Part shown: piece by piece, positions 2,953 to 35,090 of the stretch
How the letters are laid out: each line of letters starts with the position of its first letter
Numbering within the stretch: the first letter of the stretch is position 1
Assembly: GCA_947372165.1 (NCBI GenBank)
Contig: CANBSP010000002.1
Coordinates: 124,001 to 188,000, forward strand
Length of the DNA stretch: 64,000 nt
From: Actinomycetota bacterium
Lineage (GTDB): Bacteria > Actinomycetota > Actinomycetes > Nanopelagicales > Nanopelagicaceae
Direction: 5' to 3'
Notes under the pieces: generated by a model
Told to the model about the DNA's origin: nothing
The model's input: the letters and a program-made list of their open reading frames with translations, nothing else
Database searches by the model: none
Position numbers and translations under genes: made by a program

Positions 2953-3246
2953 TTACCTTCGACGGCCTAATCGCACCCACAGGGTAAGTACGCCCAAGAT
3001 CAGTGCAAAACCAAAGATCAGATCTTCAAGAGGTGCGGCGGCGATACGAACCCCAATGATCGCGCCACTTCGATACATCACAATATCGCGCGAGGTCAGC
3101 CACCAATTGGTGAGCAACTGAAAGGGCAGAATAATCGCGTAAGAGGTCCAGAATGCACGACGCTCAATGAGACGGATCTGCGTACCAAAGCGATCAAAGA
3201 GGATGCTTGCGATGAGGAACCCAAGTGCGGTGAAGGTATAACTCAT
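2953..3246 (-). CDS. crtYd: Lycopene cyclase subunit, CrtYd type
   Basis: Small membrane protein of 97 residues with three hydrophobic segments and the PLEDLIFGFALIL motif of the second half of the CrtYcd/CarR-type lycopene cyclase. It is expected to work as a heterodimer with CrtYc, closing lycopene ends to cyclic carotenoid rings. Its ATG overlaps the crtYc stop by four bases (ATGA), so the two are translated as a coupled pair. The ring type (beta or epsilon) cannot be read here. Confidence 0.85.
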   Translation of the reverse strand: MSYTFTALGFLIASILFDRFGTQIRLIERRAFWTSYAIILPFQLLTNWWLTSRDIVMYRSGAIIGVRIAAAPLEDLIFGFALILGVLTLWVRLGRRR

Positions 3247-3575
3247 GATTCATCCCCGATGAGCCAGTTCTTCTTCACCCTGCGCACCGCCTCAATCGTC
3301 ATAATCGCAGCAAGCGGGACGACGAGGAAGAATGCATATTCTTCAATCGGAATTTTAAAGGGCCCGTAGAGTCCGAGAATTTGATGGATATCGAAATACC
3401 AATCGTGATGGCCTATTGCGAGTGCATCCCAGATGAGAAAGAGAATTGCAATCGGGAGAATTGCTCGTAGCGCCCTGCCGATTCTGCGAAGCACGCCTAC
3501 CTTCAAGACAAGTTCGAGCCAGAAGGAACCCGCAACCGTAAAGGCGAGCATCCCGACATAACCCCACTTACCCAT
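3243..3575 (-). CDS. crtYc: Lycopene cyclase subunit, CrtYc type
   Basis: First half of the heterodimeric lycopene cyclase, about 110 residues, with membrane helices and the conserved IPIEEYAFFLVVP motif. I place the start at ATG 3575 (MGKWGYVG) rather than the TTG at 3596 because a TACCAT -10 box ends 7 bases before that ATG, matching the leaderless pattern seen elsewhere here. It is divergent from the pnuT riboswitch unit, and the two -10 boxes share a TA step at 3587-3588. Confidence 0.85.
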   Translation of the reverse strand: MGKWGYVGMLAFTVAGSFWLELVLKVGVLRRIGRALRAILPIAILFLIWDALAIGHHDWYFDIHQILGLYGPFKIPIEEYAFFLVVPLAAIMTIEAVRRVKKNWLIGDES

Positions 3576-3582
3576 GGGGCTA

Positions 3583-3588
3583 ATGGTA
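3583..3588 (-). promoter_or_regulatory. -10 box of crtYc, leaderless type
   Basis: TACCAT on the minus strand with a 7-base gap to ATG 3575. Its last two top-strand bases are the TA of the divergent pnuT -10 box. Confidence 0.5.
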
Positions 3589-3592
3589 ACCT
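3587..3592 (+). promoter_or_regulatory. Candidate -10 box of the pnuT riboswitch unit
   Basis: TAACCT lies about 7 bases before the first paired bases of the riboswitch, predicting a start near 3599 so that the aptamer forms at the very 5' end of the mRNA. Confidence 0.5.
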
Positions 3593-3598
3593 TCAATC

Positions 3599-3684
3599 AA
3601 CGGGAGCCGCTCTTTGGCTGAGAGGACTTGAAATCCAAGTCGACCGTATGACCAGTTCGGTAATGCGAATTGGAAAAGGGGTTC
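3599..3684 (+). promoter_or_regulatory. TPP-class (THI-box) riboswitch, divergent form
   Basis: The hallmark GGCTGAGA lies at 3616-3623, preceded by GGGAGCC and followed by an accessory hairpin (GACTTG/CAAGTC) and GACCGTATGACC. P2 pairs ACGG with CCGT and P3 pairs AGCC with GGCT. The second arm has CCA/TGG and TTCG/CGAA stems closed by a GTAATG loop, like the P5 loop of known TPP switches. The internal loop that normally binds pyrophosphate (about GAU opposite GCG) appears reduced to one base on each side. The 3' end runs into the AAGGGG ribosome-binding site, so control is probably translational. Confidence 0.75.
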
Positions 3685-3688
3685 AATC

Positions 3689-4300
3689 GTGCATTCACTT
3701 AACAACATCCTGATGACAACGCTCTTCACCGCGTGGGGTTATCACTTGAGTTACCTCGAATTCTTCGCCTTCATAACATCTGTTGTAGGCGTTGCGCTCG
3801 GCGTCTTTGGTCCGCGCTCAACCTGGCCCTGGTGGAACATCAGCAGTTTGCTCTATGCCGTGCTCTTCTTTGAAGAGAAATATTATGCAAGCGGATTTCT
3901 CCAATTTATCTTTATCGCAGGTGGGTTCTGGGGTTGGTTTGGCTGGGGCGCAGAAGGTGCTCGACCTGGAAAACTCTCTCGGCGTAACGCCTCCTATTGG
4001 CTAGCCGGATTTGCCGTTAGCTGGATCGCACTTAATCCATTGCTGATTCACTTGGGCGCTGCGGCGACTCTTACAGATTCATTTGGATTTGTTGGAAGCT
4101 GTATCGCACAAGTCTTAATGGTCAAAGAGAAGTTCGAAACCTGGCCACTCTGGTTTGTTGTGGATGCTGTCTATACCTACCAGTTCGCGCGTGGTGGGCA
4201 GTACTTGACTTCGATTCTTTATCTCATCTTTGTCGCCATTGCGATCGCTGGATGGGTCCGTTGGAATCGCGAATCAAAAAAGCAGATCACCCTCTCTTAA
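3689..4300 (+). CDS. pnuT: PnuC-family vitamin transporter, probably thiamine (PnuT-like)
   Basis: Membrane protein of 203 residues with about seven hydrophobic segments and Trp/Gly-rich motifs (WPWWNI, GFWGWFGWG) of the PnuC family, which moves vitamins by facilitated diffusion followed by intracellular phosphorylation. The TPP-class riboswitch in its leader points to thiamine rather than nicotinamide riboside. GTG 3689 is preferred because AAGGGG sits 8 bases upstream; ATG 3713 is an alternative. Its stop overlaps the next start as TAATG, coupling it to a P-loop kinase. Confidence 0.85.
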   Translation: MHSLNNILMTTLFTAWGYHLSYLEFFAFITSVVGVALGVFGPRSTWPWWNISSLLYAVLFFEEKYYASGFLQFIFIAGGFWGWFGWGAEGARPGKLSRRNASYWLAGFAVSWIALNPLLIHLGAAATLTDSFGFVGSCIAQVLMVKEKFETWPLWFVVDAVYTYQFARGGQYLTSILYLIFVAIAIAGWVRWNRESKKQITLS

Positions 4301-4800
4301 TGTTCATCATTACAATCGATGGTCCAGCAGGATCTGGCAAGACATCTCTTGCTGGGCTCATTGAAGCGGCGTTGGAAAGTGCTGGCGAAAGCGTCTACAC
4401 CCTCCATATGGATGATCTCTACGACGGGTGGAGTAACGCTCTCAGTGATGAACTAACCCAGAGGCTCGTTGCCATCATTGAGCAGGGAGAGAGCGCCTCG
4501 CAGATCACCATTCCCCGATATGACTGGCACCTCGGCATATTTGGCGAACCAATCACTGTTGATACTCCAAGTACTCTCATCATCGAAGGTGTGGGCAGTG
4601 GGCAATCCGCCACACGCGCGGCTGCCAGAATCAAGCTCTGGCTCGATGCCCCAGAAGAGATTGCGTTGGCGCGGGCGATCGAACGCGATGGCCCCGAACT
4701 CCTCGAAGAGTTACTTCACTGGCTGGTTCTTGAGGCTGAACATTTCGCCAAGGAGCAGAGTGAGAGTGTTGCGGATTACCGCGTAAAGAGCGCGCCTTAG
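4300..4800 (+). CDS. P-loop small-molecule kinase, uridine-kinase-like
   Basis: Soluble 166-residue protein with a Walker A motif DGPAGSGKTSLA at the N-terminus, an HMDDLYDGW motif near residue 34 typical of an actinobacterial uridine-kinase-like group, and IIEGVG near residue 87. Its biochemical role is not established from sequence. Translation is coupled to the thiamine-type transporter (TAATG overlap), so it shares the riboswitch. I infer that it may phosphorylate the imported vitamin and trap it, but relatives of this family also occur without pnuT, so nucleoside or CMP kinase activity remains possible. Confidence 0.75.
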   Translation: MFIITIDGPAGSGKTSLAGLIEAALESAGESVYTLHMDDLYDGWSNALSDELTQRLVAIIEQGESASQITIPRYDWHLGIFGEPITVDTPSTLIIEGVGSGQSATRAAARIKLWLDAPEEIALARAIERDGPELLEELLHWLVLEAEHFAKEQSESVADYRVKSAP

Positions 4801-34936: not shown

Positions 34937-34982
34937 CTCCTTTAGATACTTCAGGAGGGTCTTACCTGCTCTGTGAGACCCA
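34937..34982 (-). promoter_or_regulatory. Expression platform of the SAM riboswitch
   Basis: Two stems: GGGTCT/AGACCC (arms at 34976-34981 and 34957-34962) and CTCCT/AGGAG (34953-34957 and 34937-34941). The second would hide the metX ribosome-binding site. Control at translation initiation is the natural reading. Confidence 0.6.
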
Positions 34983-35090
34983 CGCTTGCCGTTGCACTGT
35001 GCAATCGGCCAGGTCTTCACCCGGAGCACCCCGCCGTGGTGGAGGGTTGCCGTCCAGTAAGCCGGGGCTAAACACTGGAACTCGTGACCT
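34975..35090 (-). promoter_or_regulatory. SAM-IV riboswitch of metX
   Basis: The minus strand carries the conserved SAM-IV core: CACGAGTTCCAG, AGCCCCGGCTTACTGG, CGGCAACCCTCC, GGCGGGGTGCTCCGGGTGAAG and CTGGCC, then CGGCAAGCGTGGG. SAM-IV is an actinobacterial relative of SAM-I and turns methionine genes off when S-adenosylmethionine is plentiful. Position directly before metX agrees. Confidence 0.88.

Follow-up and report, generated by a model that had tools for sequence, protein, structure and literature searches.

The TPP riboswitch binds its ligand in a two-part pocket, one arm of the RNA being devoted to the pyrimidine and the other to the pyrophosphate, and in the canonical fold loop L5 docks on helix P3. 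Highly conserved positions of this class include U59-A80, G60 and C77-G78, and the pyrophosphate is held by a metal that G60, C77 and G78 contact (PMC3764141). The terminal phosphate is directly contacted by a C and the G following it, in the numbering of the respective study (PMC6414600). With thiamine and thiamine monophosphate (TMP), the E. coli aptamer reaches only a weakly bound state (PMC4775224), and repression has been stated to require recognition of the pyrophosphate (PMC4112796). For four acI genomes, thiamine auxotrophy has been reported together with a THI element that precedes putative pnuC genes, for whose product the designation PnuT has been proposed (PMC5301498). Gene, element and auxotrophy are of the same kind as at the locus described here, but the parts of that article considered by us regard the element as a regular TPP riboswitch and do not mention a missing loop, a kinase partner or salvage via ThiL only. 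In view of this resemblance and of a genome size of 1.36 Mb, we take the host of our locus to be an acI-like actinobacterium of the small, freshwater type. The thiS motif or HMP-PP riboswitch is likewise a thiamin-pathway RNA sensing a ligand other than TPP, but has an unrelated, terminator-embedded architecture (PMC6478431). The NAD+-II riboswitch (pnuC motif) is also found upstream of pnuC-family genes, but represents another RNA family (PMC7749635). Neither of the two gives an Rfam match at our locus. In the open-licence literature, a scope outside which the variant survey Weinberg 2017 falls, we found no account of TPP riboswitches without J4/5.

The window analyzed here is a stretch of 64,000 nucleotides from a member of the actinobacterial family Nanopelagicaceae. 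A sequence-only reading had singled out positions 3599-3684 as a TPP-class riboswitch apparently devoid of the pyrophosphate-sensing internal loop, and its coordinates and sequence are correct. cmscan places the TPP riboswitch model (THI element, RF00059) at 3590-3695 on the forward strand with 32.9 bits (E 8.1e-5 for a 401-base stretch), which is below the gathering score of 54.3 bits, and a genome-wide search identified this as the sole RF00059 match in the source genome. In the alignment, two J4/5 positions are deleted on the 5' side and two on the 3' side, everything else being aligned. A strong match to a SAM-IV riboswitch (107.8 bits) resides elsewhere in the window, at 34977-35089 on the reverse strand. 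The thiamine-related RNA is composed of the following elements:

3601-3646, forward strand: pyrimidine-sensing arm, P2 enclosing P3, J3/2 and P3a (cmscan alignment, invariant motifs, covariation)
3652-3673, forward strand: P4/P5 as a single continuous helix without J4/5 pyrophosphate loop, 3652-3659 (CCAGTTCG) pairing with 3666-3673 (CGAATTGG)
3660-3665, forward strand: L5 loop GTAATG (TAATG invariant in a 43-row alignment of the variant)

In the first arm, P2 is formed by 3601-3603 with 3644-3646, P3 by 3606-3608 with 3616-3618 and P3a by 3625-3630 with 3636-3641, and J3/2 with the sequence TGAGA occupies 3619-3623. The U39-G40-A41-G42-A43 feature is present, CTGAGA being aligned and invariant in the variant, CGGGAGC and GCTGAGAGG are invariant in the 43-row alignment, and P3 and P3a show covariation. 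With RF00059 aligning the arm and its key motifs invariant, the pyrimidine-binding part was rightly regarded as intact. The second arm reads C3652-C3653-A3654-G3655-TTCG and CGAA-T3670-T3671-G3672-G3673, where 3654/3655 and 3670/3671 correspond to canonical positions 59/60 and 77/78. It had been described as retaining a one-by-one loop; G3655, however, can form a G-U wobble with the opposite T3670 inside an 8-bp P4/P5 helix, so that the loss was slightly understated. This leaves the arm without a loop; its free fold is an unbroken 8-bp hairpin, and a J4/5 internal loop with G60, C77 and G78 as pyrophosphate site is absent from the window RNA. The alignment to the TPP family that had been proposed as a check does not bring the canonical J4/5 back, and a rescue by realignment is ruled out since the curated model itself sets the deletions. 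In summary, the RNA shares P2, P3, P3a, TGAGA in J3/2, the A in J2/4, TAAT in L5 and a place ahead of a gene for vitamin B1 transport with the TPP riboswitch (RF00059), but J4/5 is converted to a continuous helix, C77-G78 is mostly gone, P1 is missing and the score always stays below the cut-off.

A family-wide search yielded RF00059 matches in 113 of 201 genomes, in only 15 of them above the cut-off, and no pnuT-linked variant from this search passes it. Two weak matches (L111 and L112) were judged by eye to be false positives. The family matches comprise two RNA types, canonical (ACCTGATCCGGGTAATGCCGGCGTAGGGA) and variant (ACCAGTTCGGTAATGCGAATTGGAAAGG). R1, a covariance model built from the variant, assigns 57-107 bits to variants, among which its own training sequences are counted, and at most 42.5 bits to canonical RNAs. 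At 57 bits or more it finds the variant in 134 of the 151 genomes of the order, all belonging to one family. Ninety-three matches in related species have an intact pyrimidine arm and L5, the latter reading GTAATG or ATAATG with a single exception, which differs by one C. When these 93 sequences are aligned, the eight P4/P5 pairs form in 98.2% of the cells, both-side changes occur at three pairs and the complete structure outperforms all shuffles in covariation score as well as all slides, bearing in mind that the alignment was fitted to the tested structure and is biased in its favor. Arms found in the variant are AGTTCG/CGAATT, CGTCCG/CGGACG, AATCCG/CGGATT, AGTTCG/CGAACT and GGTCCG/CGGATC; zero to two additional bases, on the 3' side only, precede the closing pairs, giving a bulge of 1-2 nt in some relatives. 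On a PnuT tree, the minimum numbers of state changes at the three inner P4/P5 pairs are 6, 8 and 5. A separate covariation count on sequences selected for P5 pairing is biased and carries no weight here. The arm thus covaries as a continuous helix, in agreement with the reported absence of the loop; conservation and covariation rule out a chance resemblance, and conservation across many genera bears out the suggestion of a distinct riboswitch variant. A low Rfam score and the loss of a conserved site would fit a decaying TPP riboswitch that binds nothing and persists as a leader hairpin, but this is highly improbable given an invariant pyrimidine core and L5 and helices that covary over many genera. 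Pyrimidine pocket, junction and L5 are all retained in the variant, with pocket and L5 near-invariant.

C77-G78 is kept in 42 of 44 RNAs with a full J4/5 and in 35 of 36 with a loop one base short (together 77 of 80), in 29 of 75 compact RNAs outside the family and in 9 of the 93 variants, among them one subgroup that retains it, all counts including close relatives. It is quite possible that the RNA is still a TPP riboswitch, in which the compact P4/P5 would contact the pyrophosphate differently, through backbone, G60 and Mg2+, with ligand and logic unchanged. The remaining C77-G78 residues and a G60 that is still G in 90 of the 93 variants are in line with this. On the other hand, both direct phosphate contacts are replaced in 84 of 93 by bases that pair and covary with positions 59/60, and in most family members the arm lacks any unpaired base.

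More arguments for TPP as the ligand are provided by other organisms. By a pattern scan of public genomes, compact J4/5 RNAs were detected in Pseudonocardia, Coriobacteria, Chloroflexi, Clostridia and others; among the matches listed, they precede thiC, thiD, cytX, TPK, thiM, thiG and pnuT-like genes, names that were derived from translations and local matches. Ahead of the thiC, thiD, thiG, thiM and TPK genes, TPP would be the effector to expect. Pseudonocardia genomes carry the compact RNA before thiC or thiD and a canonical TPP RNA before thiO; compact loci of this type include L165, L176, L181, L186, L191, L231 and others, which are below the RF00059 cut-off, and not one of 20 compact loci outside the family reaches it. 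Furthermore, J4/5 comes in graded lengths, its 5' strand measuring 4, 3 or 2 nt, and class-wide these lengths go mostly with the gene that follows, the loop being full before thiO and thiB and one base short before thiC. Within the same class, locus L154 exhibits the same arrangement of variant, pnuT and kinase gene, and at L344 pnuT is combined with an 8-nt near-canonical J4/5 arm. A strict coupling of loop loss to pnuT is ruled out by L344 and by the compact RNAs before thiC, thiD, cytX, TPK, thiM and thiG. At locus L155, the RNA of a pnuT gene has a P5 of 5 bp and a small asymmetric loop, and the gene after pnuT is another kind of P-loop kinase-like gene. In view of the gradation of J4/5 and of the compact RNAs before biosynthetic genes, we do not claim a change of ligand as established.

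Two genes are located immediately downstream of the RNA:

3689-4300, forward strand: pnuT-like transporter gene, PnuC/NMN_transporter family (PF04973, E 3.3e-35; TIGR01528; PnuC structure 4QTN, E 2.3e-6)
4300-4800, forward strand: PRK06547-like P-loop kinase gene (domain matches), overlapping the pnuT stop (TAATG)

The order variant, pnuT-like gene and PRK06547-like kinase gene is found wherever the contig is long enough, and canonical RNAs of the same family are situated before thiC, thiO or thiamine ABC genes, judged from translations in the case of thiC, thiO and genes for a ThiB-like binding protein or YkoE-like protein. Across a 37-genome panel, PnuT is matched strongly in the variant carriers, and canonical carriers have none or weak paralogs. 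Thiamine pyrophosphokinase (TPK) was found in none of the 37, ThiE is clear only in the canonical, biosynthetic genomes, with weak partial barrel matches in variant genomes, and ThiL is present in all 37, once just under the cut-off. Variant genomes, having ThiL without ThiE and TPK, therefore need import of thiamine and a step converting it to TMP. The RNA thus precedes a pnuT-like gene in the gene background of a thiamine auxotroph, and the absence of TPK and ThiE in the presence of ThiL is consistent with the idea, already expressed on the basis of the letters alone, that the transporter takes up unphosphorylated thiamine. The kinase occurs in 32 of 37 genomes, i.e. in all importers except G268, which has a different kinase-like gene after pnuT. 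It was not found in G005, G020, G032 and G014, which possess ThiE and thiO-type RNAs. Since its presence follows thiamine import in the 37 genomes, it is a candidate thiamine kinase acting in place of ThiK/TPK, a pattern that is suggestive only, as three of the four genomes lacking it share a genus.

The same gene inventory bears on whether HMP or another pyrimidine without thiazole could be sensed. The pyrimidine pocket is the only one that is intact, and compact RNAs elsewhere precede cytX, which encodes a proposed HMP permease, as well as thiC and thiD. However, the controlled gene codes for a PnuC-family transporter and variant genomes have no ThiE beyond the weak barrel matches, so that HMP could not be turned into thiamine and would hardly be a useful ligand. 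We regard this alternative as very unlikely.

As to expression, two further elements flank the aptamer:

3587-3592, forward strand: predicted -10 box TAACCT, 14 nt before the aptamer, transcript start around 3599
3674-3681, forward strand: Shine-Dalgarno stretch AAAAGGGG, directly after P4 and 7 nt before the GTG start

A TANNNT motif is present in the -18 to -5 window in 89 of 89 related leaders, compared to about 17 expected from shuffles, by far most commonly 13-16 nt upstream of the aptamer, and most canonical RNAs of the family show the same spacing. With a -10 box at a set distance, the transcript should begin at P2. The predicted promoter position thus leaves no room for P1, and a P1 switch helix was not found, complementarity between the flanks being no greater than that between swapped partners. 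On the reverse strand, divergently from pnuT, two small lycopene cyclase subunits are encoded by separate, overlapping genes (2953-3246 and 3243-3596). A distance of 3 nt separates the annotated lycopene cyclase TTG start from the aptamer, and the pnuT promoter therefore probably sits over the 5' end of these genes. In most relatives, a purine-rich AAAGG adjoins the 3' end of P4, and occlusion of the Shine-Dalgarno stretch by the ligand-stabilized fold would be the natural reading. In canonical thiB leaders (L013-L019 and L118), CCCGTG 3' of the aptamer complements CACGGG at its 5' end, which likely constitutes an alternative pairing of the expression platform.

Taken together, we have moderate confidence that the RNA descends from the TPP riboswitch, is still functional without the pyrophosphate half of the pocket and acts as a translational off-switch for a thiamine moiety. 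Lacking a phosphate pocket, it would most likely respond to the imported substrate itself, thiamine (or TMP). Transcription would start at the aptamer, hence the absence of P1, the pyrimidine arm would bind the 4-amino-2-methylpyrimidine ring of thiamine and the three-way junction and L5 would hold P4/P5 alongside. The ligand-stabilized fold would pin the Shine-Dalgarno stretch and lower translation of pnuT, an effect that the TAATG overlap could carry on to the kinase. PnuT would import thiamine, the kinase would probably form thiamine monophosphate and ThiL would convert it to TPP. A switch for thiamine only would need compensation for the missing contacts, and none is visible in the variant. 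Given the weak binding of thiamine and TMP by known aptamers, either some compensation exists or the remodeled site still accommodates TPP. J4/5-less TPP-type RNAs represent a variant of a known riboswitch class, and the link between pnuT and THI elements has been published before. We tentatively suggest that we may be dealing with a naturally occurring sensor of unphosphorylated thiamine (or TMP), a riboswitch that arose from a TPP riboswitch by zipping up the pyrophosphate pocket and is near-universal in one streamlined actinobacterial family, as part of a broader group of compact TPP-like RNAs under the Rfam threshold.

The second half of a textbook two-part pocket has apparently been removed while the switch stayed under selection, in a family that also holds canonical relatives. 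RNAs with a full loop, a loop one or two bases short and a zipped arm form a natural series for studying shifts in RNA ligand specificity, and standard Rfam annotation misses these thiamine controls. For the organisms themselves, our observations suggest a thiamine salvage route consisting of PnuT, a candidate kinase and ThiL in auxotrophs without TPK and ThiE.
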